DNA of 64,000 nucleotides. Origin: Chakrabartyella piscis. GTDB lineage: Bacteria; Bacillota; Clostridia; Lachnospirales; Anaerotignaceae. Made by a program: the position numbers and the translations under genes. How positions within the stretch are numbered: the stretch's first letter is position 1; each line of letters begins with the position of its first letter. Below, piece by piece: positions 23,625-51,659 of the stretch. Where the stretch lies: NCBI GenBank assembly GCA_030067835.1, contig CP092441.1, positions 620,001 through 684,000 on the forward strand, in the 5' to 3' direction. Under the pieces are notes generated by a model. The model worked only from the letters and a program-made list of their open reading frames with translations, searched no databases and was not told where the DNA came from.

Positions 23625-23653
23625 CTTTACATCAAACTTTAAAAGTGGTATTA
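23625..23653 (+). promoter_or_regulatory. Promoter of surface-protein/ATPase-like operon
   Basis: TTTACA (23625-23630), 17-bp spacer, TATTAT (23648-23653). It leaves an untranslated leader of about 145 nt before ATG 23806. It is the best promoter I find between the upstream terminator and the 28-kb gene block. Confidence 0.55.
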
Positions 23654-23805
23654 TATTAACAATTATATAGAAAAATATTTTCATGAAGTGTTTGACTTTG
23701 TTGATTATTTCAATGAATATTATAGATTTATTGTATCATTGCAAAGGGAAAAGCATATATAAATTAGAGTGGTTCGGGTAAGCGTGTGTGAAAGGGGTAA
23801 AATAT

Positions 23806-26800
23806 ATGTTAAAACGAATTGTTGCAACAACTGTGGGCTTGATAGCAATTGTGGCAATTGCATTTATATCTTTTGGGGTTTGGAAAACATCCAGTGAGCG
23901 TCCAACGTTTTATACCAGTGGGTATGTGTTACAAGGGGATAGTCTGGATGGAAGCAAGCAAATTGAGTTTCAGGAAGAAACGGTATTTGTCTCTTCGAAA
24001 GCAGGCGTTGTAACCTTTGATAATATATCAGGTGACACGAGTTCTGTGCCCACACAAAGTTTTGTCAACTTCAACGATGGAAATGTAATGTCATTTACAG
24101 ATGGGGTTCTTGTGGATTTTGCGGATCTTTCCAATAATTTCATCAATAACTATCATATAGATGCAATGTTGCGTGTCAATGCAAATGGAGGACAATATAC
24201 AACAGAAACCACTGCTGGCACAATGACTTTTGATGAAAACTTGTGGAAGCTTTCTGACCAAAAATATTTGATCCAATCTCCAACATTAAAGGTACATTTT
24301 TCAGACAGTGATGTACGTGAAGTTGCAGACTATGTACAAGTATCCGTTTCAGACGATGGCATTGTAAATGTTTTGACCACTGACAATGTTTGGGCAACCA
24401 TTTCTGAAAGCTTTTATATTGAAACAGAAGGTGGTGTGCAAATCAATCCTGTAACACAACTCATTACAGATGGCAATTATACCATGTCCATGGCAAAACT
24501 TTCTGTAAATGCAGATGATGTCATCAAATTGACAGAAGATGAAACACGTAGACAAATTGTTCCAGAACTTACCTTTGAAGTCATCAATGGTGAAGATGGT
24601 GAATCTGGTGTTGCTGGTCAAGCTGGTATCGCTGGTGAAGATGGTGCTGCTGGTATTGATGGTGTCATTGGTGAGATTGGTCTTACTGGTGAAGCCGGTG
24701 AAGATGGTGACGAAGGTGATGAAGGGGAACAAGGTGAAGGTGGAGCAGTAGGGGAAACAGGTGCAACTGGTGAAAAAGGATCCAAGGGTTCAACAGGTGC
24801 CGATGGTTTGAGTGGCGATGATGGAGCAAAAGGTGTTTCTGGTGCGTCTGGTGCTGCTGGTGCCGATGCAACAGGTGATTCTTCTACAAATAGTGCTTTG
24901 CCAACCATGACCATTAAAAATTGGGCTTTGTCCTCAACTTCCATTGCGGGTACCATTGCAATTTCAGACGTGGCGGGATATTTCCAAGAAGAAACCCTTA
25001 CATTATATAACTCTACATATCCAGCAACAGTTTCTGTATATAATTCATCAACTGGTGAAACCATAGACTGTTATGTTGCTACATATAATGAAACTACTGG
25101 CATATATTCTGTAGATACAAGTAGAAATGAAACCAACTTCAATGATGGGAATTCGTTGTATGACGAAGCGGAAATACACTTCATTTTGCCAGATGGGGAA
25201 CAGCTTTCACCAAATACAAATTATCAATTGATTGTGGAAGCCTACTATATGATGAACTATGATGTATATTCCAGAAAATTCGTAGATGAAACCTTCTACA
25301 CAGATTCTGCTGGTGTATATTTGACCAAAAAACTGGCAACTACCTCCACATTGGAATTGAATACCATCATATCCACTGCATATCAATCTTCTGTGGAACA
25401 GGTTGAGGTTGTGTTGTTGACAGCCAGCCAAATGAAGAATTACACATATTTATCCGACGATGGTTATACACAAAAATATGTTTTGGATTATGACAACTAT
25501 AGAGCTACCTATTATTCCAGCGATTCTACTAATGGAACTATAGTAAACAGTGTTACTGTTTCAAAAGATAATACAATAGTTGGTTTTGAAGGTTTGACCA
25601 GCGATACAACATATTACGCAAAAATAGTTGTTACAATCAATGGTTTGAAAACCATGTCTGAACAAGAGCTTGAAGTGCAAACATTAAAAGTCAAACCAAC
25701 ATGGGATACCGATACAGACCCATATGCGTATTATAATCGTGTAACAGGTCAAGTGGATGTATATCGTCAATCGGTTACAGATGATGATGGTGCAGTTACA
25801 GAATATGTATATACTCCTTATCAATATGATACCAGTACAGGCAATTGGGTTGCCCTAACAAGCCACCAAAAAGTGATGCAGTCCTACACATCAGGGGCAG
25901 CAACCTTTACACTATCCGCTGGATATTATTACTACTTCAATGTAACAATGGTTACATATAATAATGAACAAACCATTGAATACAATTTAGGAGATACAGA
26001 CGAGATTTATGTACAAGGTGGTTCTTTGCCTGGTTTGGAATTGGTGGCAGATGAAACGGGTAGTTTCTATGACACATACAATGGAACTCTTACAATCTTA
26101 AGTGATGCCAATACCACAATAGATATTGGAGTCAATGCATTGTTAAAGATTGAAATCAGAGGTGACTTGATTGGTTCAGAAACCTTGTCCTTTAGTACCG
26201 TTGGGGATACCAAAACAGACAGCAATGGCGTATATACAGCAACTTTGCTGGAAGACATTGCTGGAACAGCATATCATTTGGATTTGGACTTCCAAGATTT
26301 GTTGCAAAATACACAATATACCATCACAGTTACTGCATACATAGATTTTGATGCAGCTGCCGACGAATATGAATCTTTGAGCTATGAACTGGGTACTGTC
26401 AGCTTTAGAACCTATGACACACCAACAGCATATGTAACATGGACCACTTCAGATGATGCAAATGGTACATCTGTCATTAGTGAAAATATCAGTCTTTCAC
26501 TGATGTCTTCAACCTTTACAGATGATGCAATTACCCATGCTTCAGATGAGCTTTTGGATGGGCAAGTAACAATAGAGTTGCAAAATGCAAGTACTTCCAA
26601 AGCACAAGGGACAGCAACCATAACAGGTAGTGATCTTGTAAGTCTATATTCTTCTTCTGGTTTGACATTAACAGAGGCAAGCTTTGGTAAAACAAGTATT
26701 GACACCAGTACAGACCTTGATATTGTTGTGACAGAGGTTGCTGATGGAACCATATTCAATCAAAATACACTTGGGTACTACAATACCTTTGATATTTTGA

Positions 26801-29800
26801 ATAGCAGCAAAGATGTATCCTTTAACCAATCTTTGGCTTCTCTTGTAACTTCACCAGAAAAAGCCATTACAGCAACTGCCATTACAAAAGAAGTGGCAAG
26901 TAAATATGGTGTTGATCCAGATGATTATGAAGATTATCCAGATGATACAATTATAGGATATGAATTGACCTCTAATTTTGATAATTCAGATCGTATGGGC
27001 GAAACATTGACCTACTATGCTATGGATTATTCTCAATTCTACAATCTTGTTGTTGTTCCAAGCAGTTGTCCTGAATTTGATCTTTCAGATGCAGATTCTA
27101 TGGAAGAATTGGGATTGGGAATTGTCAGCCAAGCAACAATAGACATTAGCAGTAGTGCAACAATCCCTACTGTTGCGATTATCTTTGGAAATGATCCAGA
27201 TGATGCAGCAACGAAAGACTATGCAGGCGAAGCACAGTTTGCCCACATATCTTCCCAAGGACATTATGTGTATTATGCAGGGAATGAAAATTTGAGCAAC
27301 TCAGGGGAATTGCTTACAGGTATGGAACGTGGATTCCGTTACTTATTTGCATACACTGCAAAGGTTGCAAATTCTGATGGTGGAGAATCCTATGATTATC
27401 CAATCGACAGAACAGACCAATATGAAATTTATAAAGATACATATGGTACTGGTTTGGGTGTAACAGGAGATATTGGTGCTACCAAAACCTATATGTTAAA
27501 CTCAGGTGTTTTAGATGCACCATTGGTAGAACCACAAATTTATAGTTATGTGTATGATACAACAGACGTTTATGCAAGCACTTCAACTGTTGGGACCATT
27601 GATTTGCGATATGCCTATAGTGATGTGGATGATGTTGTAATCACAGATTCATCAGATGCAGATTATACCGTTATTTCCCATTCCTTGACTGGCATACAAG
27701 GCTTTAGTGGTGAACCAATAGGAACCAGTATTGAAAATAGTGCGACAGGAGCTTGGAATTCATTGAAACTACAGTATTCTGTTTCCTATCAAGGGGATAA
27801 ATCTGTAGTATTAACACCAACTGTCAACTTCAATCTCTATAAGGTGGATTATACAAATGCAATCACCCATTTGACAGGGGAATCTGCAACAGAAACCTAT
27901 TACCTTGCTAACATTCCAGTGGAATGGTATTGGACTGCTTCGGATCTTGGTACACCAACAATTTCAATGGATATAGACAACGAAGATAACAAGATTACGT
28001 TCTCCTTTGCAATTTATGCAGATTATTTGATTAGCAGGGCGTATGGTTTGGAATTGACAGTTAGTGCGGTTGATAAAACAAAACAGATAGAGGATGTAAC
28101 GCTTTATGCAGGTATTTCACAAAGTAGTGATGGTAAATATTATGGACAAATTTCAACAGCTCTATTAAGCGATTTCATAGACGAACGAATCCAATACTCT
28201 GCAAAAGTTTTATATGATGATGGAACACAAGGCTGGAGCAATTTGGAAAGTGATTATTTTGCATTGCAACAAACGGTAACCAGTGGAGAATTTGCATTGG
28301 GGAATTATTCCGGTATTTCTTCCAATTCCTCTTCCGCAAGCTACAAATTGTTGCAACAAGCATATGAATCAAATGAATCCAGATATTTGACAACGGATGT
28401 TTTGGAAAATACCATTAATTTGTTTGACACAAACGGCAATGAAGATACTTTTGACACAGAATTTAAATTCTATGCCACAGAAGATGGAGCCAGTGATTCA
28501 GAAAAATGGTACTATCTAAGAGTTTATGAAGATGGTGTCAAAGATCGTGGTTCAACTTACTTCACAATGAAGGGTGTTGGCACCATTGACACAGCAGTAG
28601 ATACAAATACGGCAACTGGTACCATAACAAGTATCACACCAACTATTGGGTATACCTCATCTCGTATTTACACATCCACATCAACAGGGTTTGTACTGAG
28701 AGATTTCACAGTTACAGCGTATGAGGATGTTTTTTATGAAAATGTATATGTGAATGTGTATTATGAAGATCCAAACAATATTGGAAGTCCAGATTATACC
28801 AATGAGTTGAAGCTTGAAAATGGATATAGCAACTTTGTAACCTTGAATGCATCTGGAAACTATGTTGCCGATTCTTTGACAAATGAAGGTACATTTGTAT
28901 TTGATACATCTGAGTTATATGATACAAATCAAACCTTCTATATTGTGCTTTCGATGTCGGATGATGATGGAGCAACAACATACACTGTATTGAAAACTTC
29001 AGGGGAAAAGGCAGAATATTCCTTCTATCTTGCATCTCAATTTACCTTCTATCCAATAGTAGATGCGACAACAGGAAGTGAAATTCTATACAAGAATACA
29101 AGTTATTTTGATAAATACCTTTATTTCCAATATCAAGTGAGTAGGGATGATGAAGTGTATGTGACCTATGATATTGTAGACGCAAAAGGTGAGGTTGTGA
29201 TTTCTCATGAGACAATGCAATCAGAAGGAATGTATACATCGAATATGGCATTTGATAATTTGCCAACTACCATAACAGGTAATATATTGTTGACACCAAG
29301 TGCAACAAGGGGTCTTTTGACAACAGGTGTAACCTACTCGGTAGTTGTTACAGCATATGACACAGGTACAGCACCAATTGGTACCTATGAATATGACTTT
29401 GTACTTCCAGTTGTAATTTCTACAGGTGCAACCATCAACATTACAGATGCGTCATATGATAACTTGACCTATCAAGTCACCATTACCGACACAGAATATG
29501 CTTTGATGGGTACACCAGCTACCAACCAAACCTCGGGCTTATATGCAGTTCGTTTTACAGATTCTGTTGGTAGACAAATATTTACAACCTATGATGATCA
29601 AGTATTCAATGCTGGGGTGCCAAGACAAAGCTTTACATTGTCAGATGACACTTTGGAAGGTTATGTAACGGATGCAAATTCAGGAACACAAACAAAGTAT
29701 TCCTTGACTTCAGGAGAAACCTATTGGATCAATATTTATGCTGTTATTGATAGTAACTTTGATAGCTTAGGTCCAGATACAACCGTTGATGAAAATGAAG

Positions 29801-30333
29801 ACTATTATCAAAAAGGGTATACAGATTTCTTTGGTGCAACAAATGGAGTGTATCCGTTTAATACCTATATAGATTATGCTTGGACGCAAAACTCTGGTCA
29901 AAGCAATTCTTATAAAACGACACAATCTCCTGCAATCGAAAAAGCATTCAATATTGAAACATTGGCACAAGAAACAATTGAATCTGGTGATTTGCTCATT
30001 AAAAATGCTTCGCTTGCACGTAATGGAACAGCATTTAGATTGACATTGTCAGAAAGTTTTGGTGTCATTTCCACGACAGATGAACAGGCATTTGATAAAA
30101 TCCAATGGAGTGTATCAGGTAGTACATACGATGGAAAAACTGTGACACAAAATGGTATTTCCTATGATGGATCGGATACTATGTTTGTTGAATATACAAC
30201 AACATCAGGCGCTACCACATACTATTATGACATTCCATATGAATTTGACACTGGTGAATACAAAATTACAATTCAGTTGTATCAAAATAATGTTTTGTAC
30301 CAAGCGTATAGCTTTACAATGATTGAAGCGTAA
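23806..30333 (+). CDS. Giant surface protein, N-terminal anchor and collagen-like stretch
   Basis: 2175 aa. An N-terminal membrane helix (about 7-28, RIVATTVGLIAIVAIAFISF) with no clear cleavage site suggests a type II anchor with the rest outside the cell. Residues about 30-255 form a beta-rich domain that recurs in outline in the proteins at 30347, 38700 and 39507. Residues about 262-355 are some 30 Gly-X-Y triplets rich in acidic residues, a collagen-like stalk. The remaining 1800 aa are repeated beta-sandwich-like, Thr/Tyr/Asp-rich segments, fibronectin-III-like in spacing (SxNTxYxLxVxAY patterns). No C-terminal anchor. ATG 23806 with AAAGGGG is chosen over GTG 23788. Function unknown; adhesion, or a moving surface element of the neighbouring ATPase, is possible. 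Confidence 0.85.
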   Translation: MLKRIVATTVGLIAIVAIAFISFGVWKTSSERPTFYTSGYVLQGDSLDGSKQIEFQEETVFVSSKAGVVTFDNISGDTSSVPTQSFVNFNDGNVMSFTDGVLVDFADLSNNFINNYHIDAMLRVNANGGQYTTETTAGTMTFDENLWKLSDQKYLIQSPTLKVHFSDSDVREVADYVQVSVSDDGIVNVLTTDNVWATISESFYIETEGGVQINPVTQLITDGNYTMSMAKLSVNADDVIKLTEDETRRQIVPELTFEVINGEDGESGVAGQAGIAGEDGAAGIDGVIGEIGLTGEAGEDGDEGDEGEQGEGGAVGETGATGEKGSKGSTGADGLSGDDGAKGVSGASGAAGADATGDSSTNSALPTMTIKNWALSSTSIAGTIAISDVAGYFQEETLTLYNSTYPATVSVYNSSTGETIDCYVATYNETTGIYSVDTSRNETNFNDGNSLYDEAEIHFILPDGEQLSPNTNYQLIVEAYYMMNYDVYSRKFVDETFYTDSAGVYLTKKLATTSTLELNTIISTAYQSSVEQVEVVLLTASQMKNYTYLSDDGYTQKYVLDYDNYRATYYSSDSTNGTIVNSVTVSKDNTIVGFEGLTSDTTYYAKIVVTINGLKTMSEQELEVQTLKVKPTWDTDTDPYAYYNRVTGQVDVYRQSVTDDDGAVTEYVYTPYQYDTSTGNWVALTSHQKVMQSYTSGAATFTLSAGYYYYFNVTMVTYNNEQTIEYNLGDTDEIYVQGGSLPGLELVADETGSFYDTYNGTLTILSDANTTIDIGVNALLKIEIRGDLIGSETLSFSTVGDTKTDSNGVYTATLLEDIAGTAYHLDLDFQDLLQNTQYTITVTAYIDFDAAADEYESLSYELGTVSFRTYDTPTAYVTWTTSDDANGTSVISENISLSLMSSTFTDDAITHASDELLDGQVTIELQNASTSKAQGTATITGSDLVSLYSSSGLTLTEASFGKTSIDTSTDLDIVVTEVADGTIFNQNTLGYYNTFDILNSSKDVSFNQSLASLVTSPEKAITATAITKEVASKYGVDPDDYEDYPDDTIIGYELTSNFDNSDRMGETLTYYAMDYSQFYNLVVVPSSCPEFDLSDADSMEELGLGIVSQATIDISSSATIPTVAIIFGNDPDDAATKDYAGEAQFAHISSQGHYVYYAGNENLSNSGELLTGMERGFRYLFAYTAKVANSDGGESYDYPIDRTDQYEIYKDTYGTGLGVTGDIGATKTYMLNSGVLDAPLVEPQIYSYVYDTTDVYASTSTVGTIDLRYAYSDVDDVVITDSSDADYTVISHSLTGIQGFSGEPIGTSIENSATGAWNSLKLQYSVSYQGDKSVVLTPTVNFNLYKVDYTNAITHLTGESATETYYLANIPVEWYWTASDLGTPTISMDIDNEDNKITFSFAIYADYLISRAYGLELTVSAVDKTKQIEDVTLYAGISQSSDGKYYGQISTALLSDFIDERIQYSAKVLYDDGTQGWSNLESDYFALQQTVTSGEFALGNYSGISSNSSSASYKLLQQAYESNESRYLTTDVLENTINLFDTNGNEDTFDTEFKFYATEDGASDSEKWYYLRVYEDGVKDRGSTYFTMKGVGTIDTAVDTNTATGTITSITPTIGYTSSRIYTSTSTGFVLRDFTVTAYEDVFYENVYVNVYYEDPNNIGSPDYTNELKLENGYSNFVTLNASGNYVADSLTNEGTFVFDTSELYDTNQTFYIVLSMSDDDGATTYTVLKTSGEKAEYSFYLASQFTFYPIVDATTGSEILYKNTSYFDKYLYFQYQVSRDDEVYVTYDIVDAKGEVVISHETMQSEGMYTSNMAFDNLPTTITGNILLTPSATRGLLTTGVTYSVVVTAYDTGTAPIGTYEYDFVLPVVISTGATINITDASYDNLTYQVTITDTEYALMGTPATNQTSGLYAVRFTDSVGRQIFTTYDDQVFNAGVPRQSFTLSDDTLEGYVTDANSGTQTKYSLTSGETYWINIYAVIDSNFDSLGPDTTVDENEDYYQKGYTDFFGATNGVYPFNTYIDYAWTQNSGQSNSYKTTQSPAIEKAFNIETLAQETIESGDLLIKNASLARNGTAFRLTLSESFGVISTTDEQAFDKIQWSVSGSTYDGKTVTQNGISYDGSDTMFVEYTTTSGATTYYYDIPYEFDTGEYKITIQLYQNNVLYQAYSFTMIEA
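24589..24872 (+). repeat. Collagen-like Gly-X-Y repeat region
   Basis: About 30 consecutive Gly-X-Y triplets (GEDGESGVAGQAGIAGEDG and so on), one of the few interruptions being at the ends. Asp, Glu and Ala dominate X and Y. Codons vary (GGT, GGA, GGG), so this is protein-level repetition rather than a recent DNA tandem repeat. Confidence 0.85.
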
Positions 30334-30346
30334 AGGAGGGGATGTA

Positions 30347-32758: not shown

Positions 32759-32770
32759 AAACTAAATTTT

Positions 32771-32810: not shown

Positions 32811-32841
32811 TAACTAGCATTGGAATCAAATTATATAGTAG

Positions 32842-33114
<273 letters not shown>

Positions 33115-33127
33115 GGGGTATCAGATT

Positions 33128-35227: not shown

Positions 35228-35230
35228 TTT

Positions 35231-36031: not shown

Positions 36032-36041
36032 CCAACAATAA

Positions 36042-37478
<1,437 letters not shown>

Positions 37479-37959: not shown

Positions 37960-38167
37960 ATAAACGTTGTGAGTGGGTGTGGTGGATTGGTACATTGGGA
38001 TTTGCCACTGTTTTACTGAAAGATATGTGGTATGAAAATGTAATGGATAACGGTATAGATGACAATGAAAGATTTCCTAAGGTATGTAACTTTTTCTATA
38101 CCAAGAAAATGTGTGTATCTCTTGATTGGTAGAGATAACGATGTATGGGATGCGAGGAGGAAGAAGA

Positions 38168-39476: not shown

Positions 39477-39506
39477 CTACAATTGTTGTGGTTGTGGGGG
39501 GATTAC

Positions 39507-42500
39507 ATGAAAAAATTTTTTGCGGTAATGACGGCAATGATGGCAATTTTCATTTTTATGATAGTGCAAGCAGAAGAAGCATTCCTAATTTCTGAGGATT
39601 CGGGGTATGCTGTTTCTACATCTGCGGGGATTGTCCAATCATTGAGTTCTGGAAGCAATGAAACAAAAGACCTTGCAAGAATTGAATATGAAGATATTAT
39701 ATATGAAACCATCAGCGGTTATTATGTAGGTGAAGATAGAGTGGCTATCGACATTGATTATCCTATGTATATAAACGGTGGTGCTGTTTTGCGTTTCTTC
39801 GAAGAAGGCAATTGGTTGATTACACCAGAAGTCATTTTGCAAGAAACATATGATGGGCTTTATGTTGCAAATGGTGACTCCTACAACAAGGGTATGGAAC
39901 AAACTGACTCAAATGAAGAGTTTATTTTGCTTGCTCTAGATAATGGTTTGTATATGAATGTGCAAGCATCCGTTTTCACAACAAGAATGGAAAGTCATGA
40001 GATACCCTCCAATAGTATCTTGTATTTTGACGAGTCTGTTTTCAGATGGTATTCCTATAGTGCTGGTCGTTTGACTTATGGCGAAGAAGAAAAGGTGTTT
40101 GATGCAACCTTAGCCATTGGAGAAAATGTATATGACTATGCAAGTTTGTTGGATGCTTTGGGCTTGATACGTGAAGCCATAGAGTTGCAAGAAAAAGGTC
40201 AAAATACAGATGATTTGCAAGAAGAAGCTTATTTGGTTTTGAACAAAGGGAAAACCATCAAAAAAAGTAATACAGAGGAAAAATTCAATCAGTATGAAGT
40301 GTCATTGGAAGAAATCAATGGTGAACTTGCAGATAATTCTAGTGGTGGCAATGGAGCAAGCGTGCAAAAGGATGTGGATTCTGATATAGAATCTCAAGAG
40401 AGCATATATACGATTACTGGTGAGAGAGCACAGTATGATGGTGCAGCAGAGTTGGATGACGATGACGCAGAAATCAACGTTGAAGAAGGCGACAAAAATG
40501 ATGATGACGATAATGAAGATAGCGATGATGATGATTCTGACGATTCTGACGAAAGTGACAATGAAAATGATGATTCTGAGGAAAGCGATAATGATTTAGA
40601 ATCGGATTCTGATTCTGATGACGATTCTGACGAAGATTCTGATGATGATTTCGATGATTCAGATGATGATTCTGATGCTTCTGATGATTCTGACGAGTCT
40701 GATGATGACGATGATGACGATGAAGAAGACGACGACGACGATGATGACGATGATGATGATTCTGATGACGATGACGATGATGACGATTCTGATGATTCTG
40801 ATAATGAAACAGACAAAGGCGATTCCACAGGCGGAAACAGCGATGGTTCTGGTAATAGTGGAGGAGAAGGAGAAGGTGAAGGAGAAGAGGGCGAAGAATT
40901 AGAAGGAGAAGAAGGCGAAGATGAAGGTGGTCTTGTAGTTCCAGAAGATTCTGAAAATGATTCTGAAAGCAGTTCTGGTGGCACAACAGGTGGCGGTGCA
41001 GATACAGAATTCGTTTATACCATTCCAACCATTAAATTTGGGAATTTGGATGTTTGGAGCTATGCAACTGGTGCAAAACTACATATTTTTGACCCAAGTG
41101 CGACGATCATCAGTGGTGTTAGTATTGTTGTATACAAAAGTTTGGATAGAGATGCAGCAGTGACCACAGAATATACAGATCCATATACAGGTGTAGTGTA
41201 TACTGCTTACAATGGAGAAATATTCTCTGGTAAAACAGCTCTTGCAAGCAAAAACTATAGAAGTGATGCAGAATTTGCTTTGGGTGAATTGCCAATTGAT
41301 TCCACAGTATATATTCAATATTCTTATAGTTATTATTTAGAAGAAGATGTTCCTGTTTTGGATGAAGAAGGAAACGATACAGGCGAAGTGACTTCAACAC
41401 GTTCTCGTGTATCTGTCAAATCCGATTTGATTGAAGTAACTACTACAGGAATAGAAGAAGTGAGTATTGTCAATGCAGATTGGACAGAAAATTTTGCAGC
41501 ATCTAGTTCAGGGATAAGTCTGACCAATTTGACTATGGCCAATAGCACAGACTATGATGCGGATTTGGAAGACTTTAGTTTTGAAAACTATAAACTCAAT
41601 TGTGTTTCTTTCTTGACTTCAATGAAGTTGACGGTTACAGACCAATATGGGGAAGAACAGACCCTTTCTGTTCCATACTCCACCCTTGCAAAGGCAAAAG
41701 AAAATCCCACAAGTTATCTTTCCACAAATCCTGCCCTTGCATCCAATTCTGTATATACATATACAGCACAAGGGTATGATAAAAATTCCAACGCATTCCC
41801 TATGCAAATTTCTGTAGATGGTGGAGTGACCTATGTGGATGAAAGTGAATTTGAAGGGACATTCTATACACAAAAAGAAAAACCCACAGCAAGCATATCA
41901 GAAGTTGAAAATGTTGCCGATAAGTTGACAATTCAAATTGCAATTTCTGACCCAGATGGTGCCATTGCAACAGGTTCTTCCTTGTTCTTATCTGCACAAT
42001 CTACACAAGGTGTGGATTCAGCACTGTATGGCTATGGAGATACAACCGTTAGCGATCAAACAACACTGGATACATCCAAAACCTTTGGTGGAGGAGATAC
42101 ATATGAGATAGAGCTTGCAGATGCAAAAGATGGAGCAGTGTATACTTTGCGTATTGAAAGTTTGGACTTTGCGAAGTTTTATACATTGTCCATTGATGGT
42201 ACATATGATCCAACTCCAGATAGGGCACCAGAAGGATTGTCATTGGATACAGTTTCCACGAGCTTTGGATCTTTCTTGGTATATACAAAAGCACTTACCT
42301 ATGGTTCTGTAAGTTTTGATACAACCATTACTTCACAGGATACCTATGGTTCTATTACAGCAACGATGAATTCCAATAGTACAACAGAGCTTGTGGAATT
42401 GGTGGATGAATTCATCTTTGAAGTGAAAGAAATATCTACGGGAGTCGTCGTTGAGTCCTATACATTGTTGGCATCCGAATTGAACAATGGAGTTTTGTTT

Positions 42501-45500
42501 AACTTTGACGAAGAAGATTCGAAATATACAGTCACTGTAGACAAAGAGGAAACAGGCGATTTTGCCATTAGTTTTACAGGAACAGGTGCCCAATTTAATG
42601 GAAAAGACCTTTGGGAAGCTTTGTGTATCAGTTACAATAGCGATACAGAAAAATATAGCTCTCCAATTACATTGAATGTGGATATTGATGAAGGTACTTT
42701 GAAAACATCAACACAATATTCCATTTCCATAACCTCTAATGTTATCAAATCCAATGCAACAACAGAGGTTACAACAAATTTGTCCAATAGCACCTTCTAT
42801 ACCAAAAAATTGATACCAACCATTGAAATAGATGATATCTTCCTATCCAGTGAATACTTAAATGTATTGGATTTGTTGGTGTATGACCCTGATGGAACCA
42901 TTATCAATGAACAAGTGCAAGTGTTGCTATACTATGGAAGTATCTGCTTGTATTCTGATTTCATCAGTGCAAATGCACAAACAGAAAGAACAGCGTATTA
43001 CGACATTGAAATAGATGGTTTGATTGAAGGCGAAGAATACGAATTGGTTTTGGTGGCTCCAAGCTACAAAGATACCATTGACTCCACAGTAACAGAAATC
43101 AATAAAGAATTGTGGAGTAGAACTTGTGTTGCTGGCGGTAACTTAAATGGGGATATATCTTTGACTTCTGTAGATTATACAGATAGAGCGGATAAAATCA
43201 ACCATTTGATTACCATTAGTGGTGAAGAAGCTATGTTGGGTATTGCAAACAGTGCAGATCCAACAAATAGTGATAACTCAAACCACGATTGGCATTACTA
43301 CAATTCCCAATACTATGCAACATATGACACACCAGTCTATGATTTGCAAGATGATTTGGGTGTATCCTATCAGGATTTGGCGTATATATATGTTCCAGAT
43401 TATAGACCAGATTACGATATCGACAATCCGTATTATATTGACGATGGTGGCACCACTAGGATGACGAGTTATATATATGTCAGATTCTACAAAGATGATG
43501 GCAAGGGTGGATATACTTATGTGTCTACACAGAGTACATATGTGCTAGGTGGACGTATTCCTATGATTGATGTTCCCCATTGGAGTAGTTCATACGATGA
43601 AATCACAGGTATTTCCTTCTACATTCCAGATGCATATGCCTTTGATGATACGGTTGCAGAAAAATATCAAGAAAGTTATCTTTCTAAATATGGATTCACC
43701 GCATACTATATCAAACAAAGCGAAGTCAGTGACATAGACATGTTGGAACTTTCAGGAGGGTCCGTTTCTGATGGTGCATCAGGGGTTCATGGCGGAACTT
43801 TCTCTGCCTTCCAACTTCCAGATTCAACCACAGGTATTTTGGCAAGCAATTCAACTTATGGAACACTGAATATGATTCCTGTTACACCAGGGGATTGGTA
43901 TACTAGAAACTACAGTGGATACTATGGAGAGGTAGACAGTTGGATTTCAGGCAAGTCATATAGTGAGGCCTCAAGCACCATTCGATTCTTCAGTGAAGAT
44001 GGCGCTTATGTAGGGTATCACGCTGATGCTGCTAACAATAGTTTGCTGATTATCCCAGAAGGTGTCTACTATATGAGTGTTCCTCAATACACCAATAGTA
44101 CAAATGCCTCATGGGGTTCCATGATGAAGATATTTGATGGAAACAGCGACACCAGCGACTACTTTGGTGCAACTGTGTCTACTTATGTCAATTATGAAGG
44201 TAGTTCTTCACGTGTACCAGATGAAATAACATTTACGTTGCAAAATTCTGATTCTATGGAACTTCCCATTTATTCGGATTATAGAAGTATTTCATTCCCG
44301 CTTACGATAAATGAAGACCAGACAGATGCATATGATGGACTATCTCTCTATAGTTTGCAATTGAGTGAGGATGAGGAAAAAAGTTTACAACAACTGTTTA
44401 CCGATTTAACGGCTAGTGATGGTTGGCGTATTAAAATTACAACAGAATACCAAGGAAATGACGTAAGTCTGGACTATATTGACTTTAGAACAGATATGGT
44501 ATATAGAACCATAAGAAGTTCGGGGGATATGCGTGTTGTGTCATGTCACCATATGCTCAATTATTTGATTATAGATGACTTTACCTTTAACCTAAAAAAT
44601 TATAACACAACATTTTCTGGTGTTTTGGATGCACAAGGTCATGTGGTAACAGTGGACGATTCCTCTTCCGTTAGAAGCTTTGTGTATAGCAACTTTGGTA
44701 CCATCAAAAATATTGTTTATGACATTCCAGCTGGAGCTTATTCAGACACCTATGGAGGTTTCTGTTATAATAACTATGGAAAAATAGACAATATCATTCT
44801 CAGAACCTTGGGCGATGTAACCATAGAATACTATGCAGATTCACTTCTTTGTACCACCAACCAAATTGATGGAACCATATCCAACTTCATTGTTGCCCTT
44901 GGTGGCAATGCAACAGTTGCACAAACAACATCTATAACAAGTGGTACAGCTGTAGCAATTCGTTACAACCGTGGTGTTGTGGAAAATGGATATATGTATA
45001 GTCAAAATGCAGGTGAAGGTGTTCGTTTGTATCCTGGTGAAGGAATCAATACAACATATGCTTCTGGTTTGGTTGGATATAATGAGTATGGAGGCATCAT
45101 TCAAAATATCTATACAGACTATGACTTGTGGATTGCAAGTGAAGCCATTGGCACAATGGGTTCTGCTTGGGTTAGATATACAGCAGCCAATACAGAGTCT
45201 ATGTACCATGTTGGGGAAATGTATGAATACGTTTCTGGTTTTGGTATCACCTATACCAAATTGGATGCAATGCGATTGGTTTCTTCCAGAAGTTCTATGA
45301 GTGTAATGGATAATCTGTGGTTTGTTTCGGATAATCTCTATTCCAGAAATGCTGTTACAGATACGGATACAGAAGATTTCATCAGCCAAACAGGTATTGC
45401 ACAGTTGTATAACATTGAGTGGCAAGAAAGTATTTTGGGGGATCATTTTGATGTGGAAGAAAGCATCAATATGGGCTTCTACCCAAGACTCAACACCCTT

Positions 45501-48500
45501 CCAATTTCCATGCAAAAATATCAAGAATATAGATATTTGCCATCCTTGGATGGAGAATCGGCGCCAATTCCTTTGGAAGATTCTATGGTGGAATACAATA
45601 GAGAAGTGGATGATACAACAGCAAGAATTCAAGTGAATTTCCAAAATGAAAGCAGAGCAACCATAACAGGGGTATCCATTGATAACCTGACAGTTGTAGA
45701 TGTTGTAAGCACAACAAGAAATGATGATGGATTCTACGAAGTTGTGATTGATGTTGCAATTGATCCTGAAAATGAGGAATACATCAGTGAATATGTTTTG
45801 GAAAGTGTGATTTATACCTTAAACAACAAAACCTATGTTTCTTATCCAGACTATACATTGACCAATGTTTCCATGTGGAAGGGAATTTCAGAAGTTTCAG
45901 GCTGGACAGCAATGAACAATGAAATGAGCTGGAACTATTTCCTCAAAAATGACTTGGACTTTACAGGAACAGTTGTTGGTAACATTGTCATCAATGGTAG
46001 TTTGACCAGTTTGACTTCCAATACAACATTCAAAGGTGCTTTGGATGGCAATGGATATACACTGGAAAATATCAAAATGGAAAATACAGCTGCACCTTGG
46101 GTGTTTGCAAATCTGTATAGTGCAGAAATATTTGATTTGAACATTGACAATATGTATATATCATCCACCAGCAAAGCTACATATGGACAAAGTGGATTTA
46201 TTCGCTATAGCTCAAGCCATGGAAATCTCATTGATAATGTTCATGTAACCAATAGTACCTTAATCGGTGGTGGTAACATGGGTATGATTATTGGACAGTC
46301 TGGAAATGAGCTTGTGATAAAGAACTGTTCTGTAACAGATTCCACAATAAACGATATTTCTTCCAGCTATGCAGCAAGTGTTGGTGGCATTATAGGATAT
46401 TACACAGGTGAAAGAGTTTCCAATTGTTTCACAAGAAATGTGGATATTACCATAAACGAGTCATCTATTGTAAGTAGTGTTGGCGGGCTTATTGGTAGTG
46501 GATCTTACTCTTCAGCATACAATTGTTATACACACGGAACCATTTCCGCAACAGGTTCTTATATTGGCGGTATTATGGGGCGTGATGGTGAAACACGTAA
46601 TTGTTGGAGTTATGTCACAATGGATGTGGATGGCAACTATGTTGGCGGTGTATCTGGTTATGCAGATACCAGACCAATCAATGTTTTGTCTGTTGGGGAT
46701 ATTGTCAGCACAGGTAGCGATGCCCATCGTATTGTAGGTTTGGCATCATCCACATCTGTACAATATCCATGGTATTCCAATTCCACATCATATAATATGC
46801 AAAATGTATCCAATGTTGGTAGTGGTGAAGTTGATGATGCAAAACAACTTGTATCTACAACAGGACTCATTGAGTATTCCACATGGACAGATATTATCAT
46901 GTTGGATGATGAGTGGAACTATGATAACATGCACTTAACGGTGAAAGAATCTCAAATTGTAGACACAGAAGAAGATACAGAAGAAGATACCGAAGTGGAT
47001 ACAGAGGTAAGTAGTGATGTGTATTACTTCCCATTTGTATATAGTACAAAACTGGATGAAAATGGAAATCGTCAATTGGTTCTAAACCAAGAGTTGATTC
47101 AAATGCCAGGACAAGTGGAAGAACCAAGCATGACCATAGAAAGAACTTTGTGGGACAATACAAGTACTTCTGCTCCTTATCAATTGCGTTTCCTTTTGGA
47201 GTATCCAGGGCTTACAGCGACTGAAGTGGAAGCTTTGATTACAAATGAGGATGGTTCCATCAATACAGATGCATTGTACATCACTGGTATGGACATGACA
47301 AATGCAACGGTTTATGTGCAAACATCTGGCGACCAAATTCAAGTGGATATCACGACTTCTGAGTATACCTTGGCTTTGGACAGTTATCGTTTTGTATTGA
47401 ATTATGATATTGGTGGTGTGGAAAAAGAATTTATTTCCACTTTGTATTATGAAAGAACAGACGGAACACCATTCATTCCGTATCATGAAATTGGCAGTTT
47501 GTCACAATGGAATGATATATTCAGTGCAGATGAAGGTATTCACCAAATCAGCAGTGAAAACTTTAAAATTACAGGTATGATAGACTTTGAAGAAGGCTCA
47601 ACCATATATTCAGGGTTGAAATTGGGTAGACTGGAAGGTTCTGCCAGTGATGGTAGCGTTGGATTTAAAAACCTCAACTACTATGCAGGAACTGATGGCA
47701 ATGCATGGATTGACACCGTTACAAATGTAATGAAGGATTTGACCTTCATAGACATATCTGGGGACTTCTCTGGTACAACATCAACTCGTTCCAGAACAGG
47801 TATGATTTTGTATACAAATGGTTTGGAAAATATCAACCTCAGTGGCATCAAATTGAAATCCAACAACTATTCCGCAAATTATTTGGGCTTTGTCAGTTAC
47901 TTGCAAGGAGATATGACCAATATCAACATTTCTCCAGATTTAAGTAACGCAGACAACAACTCAGAAAGTGGATTTGGTGTGTATATTGATTTGTCTGCTA
48001 CAACAAGCACAGGCTATTATTACATTGGTGGTGTTGCAGCATATCAATACGGAAGTATGGTGGATATTACAGCATCCAATATAACCGTATTTTCAAGCAA
48101 TAAATGCCAATACATTGGTGGTATTGTAGGTTCCCAATATAATACCAGTGCATATAGCAACTCAAATATCAATGTAGAAGATGTAACAATTTATGCCTAC
48201 AATGCAGCAGGCGCTGTTTCTGGGTATTATTTATCTGTTTCAACAGATATCAATGTTTCAAACTCTTACATCAATACACAACTTGGTGCTGCTGGTGTTG
48301 CATATGTTACTTCTGGTAGCATGACAAATGTTGTTGTGGATAATGTAACCATAACAGGATATTACACAGGTAATACAACTGGCGGTTATGGAAAAGGTGG
48401 TGCTTTTGGTACTGTAAACAGTGGTAGCTACACAATGTCCAATATAGTGGTGAAAAACAGTATCATAGAAGGTACTTGTGATTTGGGTGGTATATTTGGT

Positions 48501-51500
48501 AGACAATACAATCTCTATATACGAGATAGTCAAGTTATAGACACAGATATCACTGCACTCAGCCAAAGTGGCAAAACCTATACATACGCTAGTGCAGGTG
48601 GTATTGTTGGATACGACTGGAGCTCAACAAGACTTTATGAAAATCTAACGGTGCGTAATGTTAATGTTACAGGGCATAATCACACTGGCGGTATTCTTGG
48701 ATGGAAATACTCCAATGCAGTATCCATGGAAAGAATTTATATTGCAGAAGATGTAACAGTTACTTCTAATATTGGTTCTGCAGGTGGTTTGGTTGGGTTG
48801 GCTGAATATGTAGATATAAGTAGCATAGCCATTGGTGCTGATGTAAATTCGCTCACCTCCTATGCAGGTGGTTTGATTGGCAATGTTTCTTCTGCCAACA
48901 CAACTTCTGTAAGTATTGCAAATTCATACTATACAGGGGATGTTATGTCATCTGTAGCAGCTGGTGGTGTGATTGGGTATATTGCGGATGGTACTTGTGT
49001 CGAAGAAATAACAAGTGTTGCGGTCAATGCAAATGTTATGAGCACAGGAACAAGCGTTTCACCTACAGTAAACCATTCCAGTAAGGAAAATGCAGCCAAC
49101 GAAATTTACGTATTTGAAGACACTACATTAAATGGTGTTAGACTTTCCAGTTCCATTGCAATGCCTGGTATTACAGCACAAACCTATATTGCAACCAATT
49201 CTACCCTTGTGGATGGCGATTGGTTCAAGAATGCTGGAAATTATCAATCCATTGGTTTTGATGAATCCAATTGGTACTTTGCTCATATGTCAGATGAAGA
49301 CAATGCATATATGCCATTTGTTTTGACAGACACAGAAGTGGAAGTGGAAGATGGAGAAGATGCTGTTTCTGCTCAGATTTTGCCATATTCCAACAAAATA
49401 GAAAATCCTGATTATGTAGCAGGTGGAAGTGAAGAGCAGTACCTATCTGTTGGTATTTTGCTTCCAGCAGCAGGTGGTGTGGAAGAAGATTTGGCAGTTT
49501 ATGCTTCTGGTGTCAATACAATTAACATCGAAGTGAAATTGGATGATGATGAAACCACAGAAGAGATTACAATTGCATCAGGCGAAACGGTTGTAACCTA
49601 CAAAGCAGAGGAAGTTAGAGGTAGTACCAGCAATAGCGACAGTGGATATGCAGTGTTGACAGTTGCATATGACTTTGCAGATGAGTTTACAGTATCCTAT
49701 GATGGTGGTTCTGGAACCTATGCAGCAAGCGACTTAGCACGTGATGTTATGTCATATGGAAATTATTGGTACTATGTAAGTGATGCAGAAGATACAAAAG
49801 GAGATATTGTCTTTGGTAATGCATCATCAGTTTACACCATGGAAGAACATGAAGATGAACCAACCATTATTCATATGTGGCAAGGTAAAGCATTGGCAGA
49901 TGATGGAACAATTTATTCCTTAAGCAATGCAATGACTGAATATGGTAGTGGTGGTGAGAATCAATGGGGTCAAGTTGCAACCACTCCATTCTATACAACT
50001 GCAAGCAATGGATATGCCCTTACCAACTACTATAACTTTACAATTTATGGTGGTTCACTGGTTTCTGACAACCGATTGTATGTACAAACTACAGGTACAG
50101 CTTTGGTGTCCAATAAACAAAATGCTGTTTATGATGGTGTGCAATTTACATATCATACATCATCTAAATTAACTTATTATGGATTGCTGATTGATAATGC
50201 ATTTGTAGATATGACAGGCAATATGATTTTGGGTTCCCTTGCAACAAGTGGAATTGATCACATTTCCAACAGTTTGGGATATAGTGAAACAGTTGTTGCT
50301 GTTCGATATGAAAGTGGAGCAGTTGCAGTTGTCAACTACTATACAGGAACAATATTGTCTTCGACAGTCACACTTTCCGATTATGTGCAAGGTGTTGTTG
50401 CAAATATTTTGTCAAGTATGATTTCCTCAGGAGATGAAGTCCTAGGAGAAGCTGAAGATGTGTTCAATCAATTGGACGAAAGCGATTACGCTTCCAATGC
50501 ACTCAATGATGTGGAAGGTACCTCCTATGAAAATGGAATATCTTATGCAGATGGAACAGCACAAGGTGGAGATGACGACTCAGAATTAGAGGAAGCTACC
50601 ACTGGAACGACTGCTGCTACAATAGAATCGGGTGCAGATGATGCAGATAACGGAACCAATAGTGGTTCAGGTTACGAGGGTGCAGTTGATGATGAAGAAG
50701 CAACAGGAACCATAGAATTCAATTCTGGTGTAAAGGCAACCATTGTAAGCTCTGATGGAAGCACACTGGTAACAGAAAACAGTACAAATTCTGAGGGTTC
50801 TGATGCAGAATCTGCGTCTGATGGTGATAACAATAGTGGAAATGCATCTACAGATGAAAAGGATGCAACAATCTTTGATGAAACTGTGGATGAAACCGAT
50901 GAGGACTCTTTGGAAACAACAAGTTCCGATGAGGAAGAAAAAGATCTTGGTACCATTGGTGAAGGCGATGAGGAAACAGCAACTGGTGAATATGAAGAAA
51001 TTCCAGAAGAAATGCTTTCTAGTGATGTGGATGATATGAGCAGTGCAGGGGAAGAGTTGTCTGAAAACAGTACAACATCATCGGCTGCAAATGTTGTAAT
51101 CACTGGCATTAACTATCCAGAAACCGCTATTTACGATGCCCAAGAACAAACTCTTGCAACGGATTTGGGTGTTCTCAAAATAGAAGACGCAAGCTATGTT
51201 CCAGGAGAAGGCGTTTATGTTGCAGATGAATTGATTTACATGGAAGCTGGAACATTCACTACACCTGAAGGCACACAAAGAGTTGAATTGATTTCAACAG
51301 AACAACAATATGAAGCAATTTTGGAATCTTTGGGCGAATTTGTTATGGTATATAATGTAGATGCACAGGGATATGAAAAAGTGAAAACAGCAACATTGTT
51401 GAACAATGCTTCGAAACACACAACCTCGATTGATGATGAGGAAGAAGAAGCGTTGCAAGTTGATAATGAAGATGAAGATGGATTTGCTGTCAACAAAGGT

Positions 51501-51617
51501 TGGGTCAAAACATTATCACAAATGGAAAAAAGCGGATTTACATTGTTATTCTTTATCTTACTTGCAAGTATTGTTGTATTAGCGGTCATTTATTTTAAAG
51601 TCAAAAAACGTGAATAG
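39507..51617 (+). CDS. 4036-aa giant surface protein with Asp/Ser-rich and GLUG-type repeats, C-terminal anchor
   Basis: The signal peptide MKKFFAVMTAMMAIFIFMIVQAEEA is followed by a 200-aa N-terminal domain like those in the neighbouring surface proteins. An extreme Asp/Ser/Glu tract (about 317-435) follows, then Gly/Glu-rich linker and long Tyr/Thr/Ser-rich beta domains. Two regions carry GLUG-type units (about 2220-2420 and 2830-3190; GGIIGYYTG, GGLIGSGS, YIGGIMGRDG, GGVSGYADT), which form beta-solenoids in other adhesins. A second acidic linker lies at about 3640-3860. A last small domain is followed by one membrane helix (LLFFILLASIVVLAVIYF) and a short basic tail; there is no LPxTG motif. 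ATG 39507 follows GGGGGGA. One third of the window's coding capacity in this region is devoted to it. Function unknown. Confidence 0.87.
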   Translation: MKKFFAVMTAMMAIFIFMIVQAEEAFLISEDSGYAVSTSAGIVQSLSSGSNETKDLARIEYEDIIYETISGYYVGEDRVAIDIDYPMYINGGAVLRFFEEGNWLITPEVILQETYDGLYVANGDSYNKGMEQTDSNEEFILLALDNGLYMNVQASVFTTRMESHEIPSNSILYFDESVFRWYSYSAGRLTYGEEEKVFDATLAIGENVYDYASLLDALGLIREAIELQEKGQNTDDLQEEAYLVLNKGKTIKKSNTEEKFNQYEVSLEEINGELADNSSGGNGASVQKDVDSDIESQESIYTITGERAQYDGAAELDDDDAEINVEEGDKNDDDDNEDSDDDDSDDSDESDNENDDSEESDNDLESDSDSDDDSDEDSDDDFDDSDDDSDASDDSDESDDDDDDDEEDDDDDDDDDDDSDDDDDDDDSDDSDNETDKGDSTGGNSDGSGNSGGEGEGEGEEGEELEGEEGEDEGGLVVPEDSENDSESSSGGTTGGGADTEFVYTIPTIKFGNLDVWSYATGAKLHIFDPSATIISGVSIVVYKSLDRDAAVTTEYTDPYTGVVYTAYNGEIFSGKTALASKNYRSDAEFALGELPIDSTVYIQYSYSYYLEEDVPVLDEEGNDTGEVTSTRSRVSVKSDLIEVTTTGIEEVSIVNADWTENFAASSSGISLTNLTMANSTDYDADLEDFSFENYKLNCVSFLTSMKLTVTDQYGEEQTLSVPYSTLAKAKENPTSYLSTNPALASNSVYTYTAQGYDKNSNAFPMQISVDGGVTYVDESEFEGTFYTQKEKPTASISEVENVADKLTIQIAISDPDGAIATGSSLFLSAQSTQGVDSALYGYGDTTVSDQTTLDTSKTFGGGDTYEIELADAKDGAVYTLRIESLDFAKFYTLSIDGTYDPTPDRAPEGLSLDTVSTSFGSFLVYTKALTYGSVSFDTTITSQDTYGSITATMNSNSTTELVELVDEFIFEVKEISTGVVVESYTLLASELNNGVLFNFDEEDSKYTVTVDKEETGDFAISFTGTGAQFNGKDLWEALCISYNSDTEKYSSPITLNVDIDEGTLKTSTQYSISITSNVIKSNATTEVTTNLSNSTFYTKKLIPTIEIDDIFLSSEYLNVLDLLVYDPDGTIINEQVQVLLYYGSICLYSDFISANAQTERTAYYDIEIDGLIEGEEYELVLVAPSYKDTIDSTVTEINKELWSRTCVAGGNLNGDISLTSVDYTDRADKINHLITISGEEAMLGIANSADPTNSDNSNHDWHYYNSQYYATYDTPVYDLQDDLGVSYQDLAYIYVPDYRPDYDIDNPYYIDDGGTTRMTSYIYVRFYKDDGKGGYTYVSTQSTYVLGGRIPMIDVPHWSSSYDEITGISFYIPDAYAFDDTVAEKYQESYLSKYGFTAYYIKQSEVSDIDMLELSGGSVSDGASGVHGGTFSAFQLPDSTTGILASNSTYGTLNMIPVTPGDWYTRNYSGYYGEVDSWISGKSYSEASSTIRFFSEDGAYVGYHADAANNSLLIIPEGVYYMSVPQYTNSTNASWGSMMKIFDGNSDTSDYFGATVSTYVNYEGSSSRVPDEITFTLQNSDSMELPIYSDYRSISFPLTINEDQTDAYDGLSLYSLQLSEDEEKSLQQLFTDLTASDGWRIKITTEYQGNDVSLDYIDFRTDMVYRTIRSSGDMRVVSCHHMLNYLIIDDFTFNLKNYNTTFSGVLDAQGHVVTVDDSSSVRSFVYSNFGTIKNIVYDIPAGAYSDTYGGFCYNNYGKIDNIILRTLGDVTIEYYADSLLCTTNQIDGTISNFIVALGGNATVAQTTSITSGTAVAIRYNRGVVENGYMYSQNAGEGVRLYPGEGINTTYASGLVGYNEYGGIIQNIYTDYDLWIASEAIGTMGSAWVRYTAANTESMYHVGEMYEYVSGFGITYTKLDAMRLVSSRSSMSVMDNLWFVSDNLYSRNAVTDTDTEDFISQTGIAQLYNIEWQESILGDHFDVEESINMGFYPRLNTLPISMQKYQEYRYLPSLDGESAPIPLEDSMVEYNREVDDTTARIQVNFQNESRATITGVSIDNLTVVDVVSTTRNDDGFYEVVIDVAIDPENEEYISEYVLESVIYTLNNKTYVSYPDYTLTNVSMWKGISEVSGWTAMNNEMSWNYFLKNDLDFTGTVVGNIVINGSLTSLTSNTTFKGALDGNGYTLENIKMENTAAPWVFANLYSAEIFDLNIDNMYISSTSKATYGQSGFIRYSSSHGNLIDNVHVTNSTLIGGGNMGMIIGQSGNELVIKNCSVTDSTINDISSSYAASVGGIIGYYTGERVSNCFTRNVDITINESSIVSSVGGLIGSGSYSSAYNCYTHGTISATGSYIGGIMGRDGETRNCWSYVTMDVDGNYVGGVSGYADTRPINVLSVGDIVSTGSDAHRIVGLASSTSVQYPWYSNSTSYNMQNVSNVGSGEVDDAKQLVSTTGLIEYSTWTDIIMLDDEWNYDNMHLTVKESQIVDTEEDTEEDTEVDTEVSSDVYYFPFVYSTKLDENGNRQLVLNQELIQMPGQVEEPSMTIERTLWDNTSTSAPYQLRFLLEYPGLTATEVEALITNEDGSINTDALYITGMDMTNATVYVQTSGDQIQVDITTSEYTLALDSYRFVLNYDIGGVEKEFISTLYYERTDGTPFIPYHEIGSLSQWNDIFSADEGIHQISSENFKITGMIDFEEGSTIYSGLKLGRLEGSASDGSVGFKNLNYYAGTDGNAWIDTVTNVMKDLTFIDISGDFSGTTSTRSRTGMILYTNGLENINLSGIKLKSNNYSANYLGFVSYLQGDMTNINISPDLSNADNNSESGFGVYIDLSATTSTGYYYIGGVAAYQYGSMVDITASNITVFSSNKCQYIGGIVGSQYNTSAYSNSNINVEDVTIYAYNAAGAVSGYYLSVSTDINVSNSYINTQLGAAGVAYVTSGSMTNVVVDNVTITGYYTGNTTGGYGKGGAFGTVNSGSYTMSNIVVKNSIIEGTCDLGGIFGRQYNLYIRDSQVIDTDITALSQSGKTYTYASAGGIVGYDWSSTRLYENLTVRNVNVTGHNHTGGILGWKYSNAVSMERIYIAEDVTVTSNIGSAGGLVGLAEYVDISSIAIGADVNSLTSYAGGLIGNVSSANTTSVSIANSYYTGDVMSSVAAGGVIGYIADGTCVEEITSVAVNANVMSTGTSVSPTVNHSSKENAANEIYVFEDTTLNGVRLSSSIAMPGITAQTYIATNSTLVDGDWFKNAGNYQSIGFDESNWYFAHMSDEDNAYMPFVLTDTEVEVEDGEDAVSAQILPYSNKIENPDYVAGGSEEQYLSVGILLPAAGGVEEDLAVYASGVNTINIEVKLDDDETTEEITIASGETVVTYKAEEVRGSTSNSDSGYAVLTVAYDFADEFTVSYDGGSGTYAASDLARDVMSYGNYWYYVSDAEDTKGDIVFGNASSVYTMEEHEDEPTIIHMWQGKALADDGTIYSLSNAMTEYGSGGENQWGQVATTPFYTTASNGYALTNYYNFTIYGGSLVSDNRLYVQTTGTALVSNKQNAVYDGVQFTYHTSSKLTYYGLLIDNAFVDMTGNMILGSLATSGIDHISNSLGYSETVVAVRYESGAVAVVNYYTGTILSSTVTLSDYVQGVVANILSSMISSGDEVLGEAEDVFNQLDESDYASNALNDVEGTSYENGISYADGTAQGGDDDSELEEATTGTTAATIESGADDADNGTNSGSGYEGAVDDEEATGTIEFNSGVKATIVSSDGSTLVTENSTNSEGSDAESASDGDNNSGNASTDEKDATIFDETVDETDEDSLETTSSDEEEKDLGTIGEGDEETATGEYEEIPEEMLSSDVDDMSSAGEELSENSTTSSAANVVITGINYPETAIYDAQEQTLATDLGVLKIEDASYVPGEGVYVADELIYMEAGTFTTPEGTQRVELISTEQQYEAILESLGEFVMVYNVDAQGYEKVKTATLLNNASKHTTSIDDEEEEALQVDNEDEDGFAVNKGWVKTLSQMEKSGFTLLFFILLASIVVLAVIYFKVKKRE
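40456..40812 (+). repeat. Asp/Ser-coding low-complexity tract (GATGATGAC/GATTCT units)
   Basis: About 360 bp of GAT, GAC and TCT codons encoding nearly uninterrupted Asp, Ser and Glu, giving a very high negative charge at the wall-facing base of the giant protein. Such SD-type tracts span cell walls or bind calcium in other surface proteins. The minus-strand open frame over it is an artefact of the repeat. Confidence 0.88.
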
Positions 51618-51623
51618 CAAATG

Positions 51624-51659
51624 AATAAGACCCCTGTATCTTAATATAGGGGTCTTATT
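51624..51659 (+). terminator. Strong terminator closing the surface-protein/ATPase-like unit
   Basis: AATAAGACCCCTGTAT pairs with ATATAGGGGTCTTATT (16 bp, one G-U, loop CTTA). It lies 6 bp after the stop of the giant gene and separates it from the signalling module. Confidence 0.85.

Follow-up and report, generated by a model that had tools for sequence, protein, structure and literature searches.

What does a bacterium do with a second set of F1-type ATPase genes that is embedded among genes for very large surface proteins? The question is raised by a gene cluster in a stretch of 64,000 nucleotides (nt) of Chakrabartyella piscis (assembly GCA_030067835.1, contig CP092441.1, positions 620,001-684,000 of the forward strand), referred to below as the window, in which all positions are counted from the first letter. 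The cluster encodes, all on the + strand, two surface proteins (S1 and S2), a c-like ring protein, a stalk protein, alpha-, gamma-, beta- and epsilon-like subunits, a protein with five predicted transmembrane (TM) helices (5-TM), a protein with a single TM helix (1-TM) and a giant surface protein. On balance we regard it as probable that these genes encode an ATP-driven rotary motor, in which an F1-type ATPase with a ring devoid of the ion-carrying acid would pass torque across the membrane to S1, S2, 1-TM and the giant protein. The ring without its acid, the absence of a subunit a from the cluster, the intact catalytic residues and the conserved linkage to surface proteins together lead us to a reading in terms of mechanical work.

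An original prediction, made from the letters of the window, had given the gene positions and their common strand, all of which were verified in the window, and had argued that the second set is not needed for ATP synthesis. This argument holds, as an ordinary F-type ATP synthase operon lies at 11781-17857, about 15 kb upstream of the F1-like set. The ring protein offers a further reason for a role other than synthesis, which the original prediction had missed. For comparison, a contig scan yielded 116 relatives, of which the best 80 loci were retained as the basis of all locus counts given here, with genes detected by six-frame profile searches (L-numbers designate loci and G-numbers genomes, G000 being that of the window). 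These loci are partly non-independent: L085, L087 and L096 share an assembly, and the members of the pairs L077/L080 and L110/L115 are almost identical.

The c-like protein (32866-33114; 82 amino acids (aa), two TM helices; PF00137, 6.7e-8) is clearly recognisable, with an hhalign value of 98.0% against ordinary subunit c. It keeps the glycines of TM1 and the cytoplasmic polar loop AE[AS][VI]GRNPE; in ordinary c these glycines pack the ring and the loop binds gamma and epsilon. In the core of TM2, by contrast, neither Asp nor Glu is found in the window protein or in 78 of the 79 c-like copies overall, these being the window copy and those detected in 78 of the 80 loci, the remaining two contigs stopping before c (TM2 of L099, where the loop is divergent, was scored by eye). 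The ion-binding Glu was present in all 17 ordinary c controls. These come from related genomes: of 21 operon stretches fetched, our script detected c in 15, two of them with two copies. The missing acid also distinguishes this ring from the Na+-binding c ring of the N-ATPase, and the window protein reaches only 13.9 bits with the N-ATPase profile TIGR03322, for which the cut-off is 130.85.

Subunit a is likewise missing: a profile of ordinary a gave no match in the 80 loci and, in the window, matched solely the gene of the ordinary operon, which is also the single PF00119 gene of G000. Among 23 carrier genomes, a PF00119 gene occurs in nine and none in 14, and in 13 of the 23 (G218, G221-G225 and G228-G234) the F1-like pair represents the only PF00006 proteins above 101 bits. 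Most carrier genomes are metagenome-assembled genomes (MAGs), in which gaps may occur; the pattern of a missing a or a missing second pair repeats across genomes. As an alpha/beta pair with no ion site is the only one in some cells, it is hard to see it as a spare ATP synthase. G000 itself has, besides its two F1 sets, a pair of V-type size at 1.80 Mb and a single PF00006 gene of lower score; a 98-bit PF00006 match at 441 kb is tentatively taken for Rho or FliI.

The motifs needed for catalysis are preserved. The alpha-like (33896-35227; 443 aa; PF00006, 1.1e-69) and beta-like (36072-37478; 468 aa; PF00006, 9.4e-63) subunits were compared in sets of 73 and 64 members drawn from the 80 loci and the window, window included, partial or low-scoring genes being excluded. 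The P-loop and the catalytic GER motif of beta are intact in 64 of 64 members, and the arginine-finger motif SVSR of alpha is kept in 72 of 73. The C-terminus of alpha is about 55 residues shorter than that of ordinary alpha. The alpha-like proteins form a discrete family, the best 120 of 6846 matches being 374-453 aa long and 65-100% identical to the window alpha, and 25 of these best matches have a mean column identity of 75%. The gamma-like rotor subunit (35231-36031; 266 aa; PF00231, 1.4e-25) matches ordinary gamma at an hhalign value of 98.8%, and the epsilon-like protein (37491-37898; 135 aa) is a weak assignment. The set is thus akin to ordinary F1Fo in its alpha, beta, gamma and c homologues, its catalytic residues and, tentatively, a delta-like motif in the stalk protein, and differs from it in the ring without an ion-binding acid, the lack of a and the surface proteins of its cluster. 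Two observations on alpha may be added: in L051, L061, L064, L065 and L067 (Bacilli/Firmicutes) the alpha-like open reading frame (ORF) measures 829-1090 aa, with a long extension beyond the alpha core, and G219, the carrier of L055, has two F1-like alpha/beta sets on two contigs, each accompanied by S2.

The stalk protein (33128-33895; 255 aa) has one N-terminal TM helix and no significant Pfam match; its C-terminus bears some resemblance to ordinary delta in profile comparison. With such an anchor and such a motif, it is plausible that it acts as a stator holding alpha3beta3. The 5-TM protein (38126-38719; 197 aa from a TTG start, or 183 aa from the ATG at 38168) is predicted to have five long helices and was modelled with a predicted local distance difference test (pLDDT) score of 87.3.

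The original prediction had further tied the F1-like set to extracellular proteins and proposed looking for the same neighbourhood, in particular for beta together with 5-TM, 1-TM and the giant protein, in other genomes. The neighbourhood is indeed conserved. In 44 of the 80 loci, S1, S2, c, stalk, alpha, gamma, beta, epsilon, 5-TM and 1-TM are found on one contig (L061 included, where the S1 call is doubtful), and 30 of these 44 also have a giant gene. Gene by gene, the 80 loci contained c in 78, stalk in 79, gamma in 76, beta in 72, epsilon in 70, 5-TM in 64, 1-TM in 63, S2 in 64, S1 in 50 (one doubtful) and a giant-type gene in 44. When only loci whose contig extends to the place of the gene are considered, the ATPase genes are nearly invariable (c 75/75, stalk 78/78, gamma 74/74, beta 70/71, epsilon 66/66) and the others recur with them (5-TM 57/63, 1-TM 54/59, S2 58/63, S1 43/46, giant-type 41/55). 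In six loci scored without 5-TM, the slot is occupied by a gene of some 400 aa; its assignment came solely from an iterated profile into which these genes had already been taken up.

The arrangement is not a matter of chance: the gene order of the window is found in 67 of the 80 loci, eight of which lack gamma or beta and so are uninformative between the two orders observed. In the second order (12 loci), gamma is the last gene and 1-TM, if detected, precedes c; the one other locus, L061, departs from the window order only through its doubtful S1 call, which falls inside its S2. S2 occurs in 22 of the 23 carrier genomes (on another contig in G231) and was not found in G230. Four loci of the second order (L104, L105, L107 and L109) have no linked S1, S2 or giant gene and carry a gene of 281-309 aa after gamma, followed in L104 and L105 by series of proteins of 212-270 aa in which the signal region is SipW/TasA-like (identified by eye; TIGR04088 was below its cut-off).

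The four surface proteins are built as follows. S1 (23788-30333; 2181 aa) has an N-terminal anchor, an ectodomain, a collagen-like Gly-X-Y stretch (PF01391, 1.9e-12) and a long C-terminal part; S2 (30323-32758; 811 aa) has an N-terminal anchor, a conserved ectodomain and a glycine-rich, tandem-repeat tail; 1-TM (38700-39476; 258 aa) consists of an anchor helix and an ectodomain of about 20 short strands; and the giant protein (39483-51617; 4044 aa from a TTG start, 4036 aa from the ATG at 39507) combines an N-terminal signal or anchor with a C-terminal TM helix. An N-terminal hydrophobic segment is present in 40 of 41 S1, 54 of 57 S2, 44 of 44 1-TM and 25 of 25 giant proteins compared. Profile comparison shows a kinship among the ectodomains of S1, S2 and 1-TM (hhalign 97.9, 94.1 and 87.0%, the 97.9% being that of S2 with S1; controls against 5-TM gave 0.4-24%). 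The kinship of the giant ectodomain is uncertain, with 62% for 1-TM against giant and matches to S1 and S2 that are confined to the last part of the compared stretch (42 and 63 columns). A predicted model of 1-TM (pLDDT 91.8), with a helix followed by some 20 short strands, found no match in the PDB.

In one group of close relatives the exposed parts of these proteins differ, while the motor hardly varies. Between L078 and L088, alpha, beta and c are 98, 99 and 99% identical and 1-TM 51%; the identity of S1 decreases with distance from the membrane, from 72 to 36%, and that of the giant from 72 to 44% before rising to 67%. Two further features were recorded: the end of the S2 gene (32179-32741) is made of near-perfect tandem repeats (21 nt x 12.9 and 24 nt x 12.2), the copy number of which could vary, and in L073 the large protein encoded after 1-TM (15123-18566) has an ALK/LTK-type glycine-rich domain at its C-terminus (PF12810, 3.8e-33).

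Phylogenetic trees of alpha, of beta and of both jointly were built with 16-17 members of the F1-like family, 12 ordinary F1 sequences and mycoplasma sequences of Type 1 (6-7), Type 2 (3-6) and Type 3 (7), alpha proteins longer than 600 aa being trimmed to 470 residues. The alpha and beta of the ordinary operon of G000, which form long branches, were left out of the main trees (in that operon, gamma and beta are fused into one 765-aa ORF at 15157-17454). In all three trees the F1-like family forms a single clade with support of 100/100, outside the ordinary Firmicute and mycoplasma ATP synthases; the alternative that the original prediction had put forward, a position within ordinary F-ATPases, is thus not what the trees gave. 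The family groups with the mycoplasma Types 2 and 3 with support of 97/99 (alpha), 88/87 (beta) and 100/100 (both), and a shared ancestry is likely from these topologies. Long branches were flagged in the beta and joint trees. A grouping of the mycoplasma Types 1-3 alone had approximately unbiased test values (p-AU) of 0.104 for alpha (not rejected), 0.044 for beta (just rejected) and 0.0096 for both (rejected); when Type 3 was left out, Types 1 and 2 together were not rejected (p 0.116), and when Type 2 was left out, Types 1 and 3 together were rejected (p 0.006). A V-type outgroup was tried and dropped, its branch being too long to be useful, and the position of Types 1-3 on one side of trees that omit the F1-like family was set aside as uninformative, ordinary Firmicute F1 being merely one side of an unrooted tree.

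The analogy with the gliding ATPases of mycoplasmas, which the original prediction had drawn, is supported, and the trees favour a link by descent, subject to the flagged long branches. As in Type 2 (the G1-ATPase of Mycoplasma mobile gliding), an extra alpha/beta/gamma set with intact catalytic motifs stands beside an ordinary ATP synthase, and for G1 a rotary motion has been proposed, in the account of PMC11864180, to reach a crank and a leg protein and so to be passed on to large surface proteins. As in Type 3, an F1-like cluster that lacks subunit a is tied to surface proteins. The accessory genes differ. Our cluster has a c-like ring, a TM stalk, 5-TM and 1-TM, whereas Types 2 and 3 have a seven-gene cluster with a 12-TM protein and large proteins with two or three TM helices. 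Profiles of 5-TM, stalk, 1-TM and c showed no hhalign similarity to genes 1, 2, 4 and 5 of five mycoplasma clusters (best value 7.9%). The N-terminal extension of the Type 2 beta is missing, the median number of residues before the beta P-loop being 147 (64 members). Type 3 alpha is reported in PMC12994834 to have no N-terminal helix; in our family the median number of residues before the alpha P-loop is 166, close to the 168 of ordinary alpha, against 154 in Type 3 and 150 in Type 2.

How might such a machine work? We infer both the rotation and its use, the nearest models being the G1-ATPase of M. mobile and Type 3. Alpha3beta3 would hydrolyse ATP and turn gamma and epsilon together with the c-like ring, and would itself be kept from turning by the stalk protein. 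On or around the ring there might lie 5-TM and the TM helices of the four surface proteins, so as to couple it to them; the ectodomains of S1, S2, 1-TM and the giant protein could then make up a shaft, collar or crank outside the cell by which the distal parts are moved, and these parts would bind, or move against, something in the surroundings. The likely use would be the moving or pulling of adhesive surface fibres.

Several observations weigh against this reading. The mechanical output is reached by exclusion and by analogy, and long-branch attraction may account for the placement of the family with the mycoplasma motors in the trees. One ring protein, that of L051, carries an Asp as residue 59, directly before the position that aligns with the ordinary Glu, and a loss of the acid in every ring protein was accordingly rejected in favour of the count given above. 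Epsilon is only weakly assigned (NF009977, E 0.03; hhalign 7% over 79 columns), as is the stalk, whose C-terminus matches ordinary delta at 70% over 30 columns and b at 3.8%, and the model of 5-TM had no match in the PDB at E 0.001. As regards linkage, the giant-type gene is missing from 14 of the 55 loci that extend to its place, and six loci of the second order (L102, L104, L105, L107, L109 and L116) have no linked S2, although in the genome of L107 an S2 is located elsewhere, unlinked. Finally, a fast divergence of S1 is not general, since in the pairs L111/L113 and L110/L115 S1 is 88-100% identical.

Other readings of the same genes have to be set against the rotary motor. An ATP-powered catch-and-release, in which the motor resets surface binding proteins to free their ligand, as proposed for Type 3 with MIB-MIP, would find support in the report that the Type 3 F1-like ATPase is required for MIB-MIP function in mycoplasmas (PMC12994834), in the vicinity of Type 3 to our family in the trees and in the rapid divergence of exposed S1 parts in some close pairs. 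We nevertheless judge it unlikely, given that Pfam found no protease or immunoglobulin-binding domain in the three S1, two S2 and three giant-type proteins scanned, and that genes 1, 2, 4 and 5 of the five mycoplasma clusters compared showed no similarity to the membrane and surface genes of our cluster. Less probable still would be an ATPase for secretion or assembly, by which the giant surface proteins would be exported or built. The linkage to these proteins speaks for it, and the homologous FliI and SctN, which share the ATPase fold, perform work of this kind without ions, in flagellar and type III export. Yet FliI and SctN are single-subunit homohexamers with no c ring, a plan from which paired alpha/beta and a c-like ring depart; export-ATPase scores are far lower (alpha reaches 394 bits as F1 alpha and 167 bits as FliI, beta 467 against 201 bits in the FliI/SctN comparison); and the N-terminal hydrophobic segments of the surface proteins are of an ordinary kind.

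An ion pump of unorthodox build in its membrane half, with 5-TM in place of subunit a, seems to us improbable: besides the nearly universal loss of the TM2 acid, 5-TM compares with ordinary a at 0.3% in profiles, and an alignment of 50 5-TM proteins has no invariant column. That the set is a decaying duplicate of ATP synthase, beside surface-protein genes by chance, is hardly credible. The lost ring acid and the shortened alpha would agree with decay, but not the degree of conservation within the alpha-like family, nor a linkage maintained in Bacillota and in one Bifidobacterium, nor the genomes in which the F1-like pair is the only one of its kind.

The F1-like system is rare and scattered. 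The locus labels comprise Lachnospiraceae, Oscillospiraceae, other Clostridia, Bacilli, Erysipelotrichaceae and Tenericutes/Mollicutes MAGs, many carriers coming from animal guts, and one isolate among the carriers lies outside Bacillota, Bifidobacterium colobi LC6 (L049). Within the order of the window organism, the alpha-like gene was found in one of 196 sampled genomes, as was 1-TM, this being G000 in both cases. The system was found in five of 395 sampled genomes of the class of a Bacilli carrier and in one of 112 of the genus of the Bifidobacterium carrier; the count for the order and these two each include the genome on which the search was centred. The B. colobi locus holds the complete set at a GC content of 58-61%, three other stretches of that genome averaging 58-59%, whereas the cluster in the window has 38%. 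From this agreement with the local composition the cluster is resident in B. colobi, and its horizontal transfer is likely.

In the window the genes are tightly packed. S1 and S2 overlap by 11 nt, and the gaps are 107 nt (S2 to c), 13 (c to stalk), 0 (stalk to alpha), 3 (alpha to gamma), 40 (gamma to beta) and 12 (beta to epsilon); 269 nt separate epsilon from the ATG of 5-TM, or 227 from its TTG, 5-TM and 1-TM overlap by 20, and the giant gene begins, from its ATG, 30 nt after 1-TM. Terminator-like sites did not exceed shuffled sequence (5 and 10 found against 6.8 and 8.7 expected), nor did promoter-like sites (50 and 57 found against 56.5 and 56.4), so that a single transcript for the cluster is plausible. 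Downstream of the giant gene (51682-54835) lie genes for a beta-lactamase-fold protein, a GAF protein and a PP2C-type phosphatase with TM helices, all named by eye; they have no relatives in the other loci, many of which stop inside the giant gene. Upstream of S1, L064 carries EzrA (459-2168; PF06160, 2.9e-99), and L065, L067 and L070 have a 570-aa gene in the matching place.

Taken further, the cluster might represent a proton-independent, ATP-driven spinning machine of walled bacteria, in which a c-ring with no ion site turns an external shaft of S1, S2, 1-TM and the giant protein, and thereby a c-ring-bearing relative from whose line the gliding and antibody-shedding motors of mycoplasmas descend. 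We offer this wider proposal tentatively and with considerable doubt; if true, it would add a third kind of output for rotary ATPases. In the F1-like family of Clostridia, Bacilli and one Bifidobacterium isolate, the c ring is still recognisable and its ion site is lost, which makes two questions testable, namely how F1 rotation could cross a membrane with no ions involved and what the origin of the mycoplasma gliding motor was. In little-studied gut bacteria, the presence of the F1-like cluster may put a name to a surface machine.

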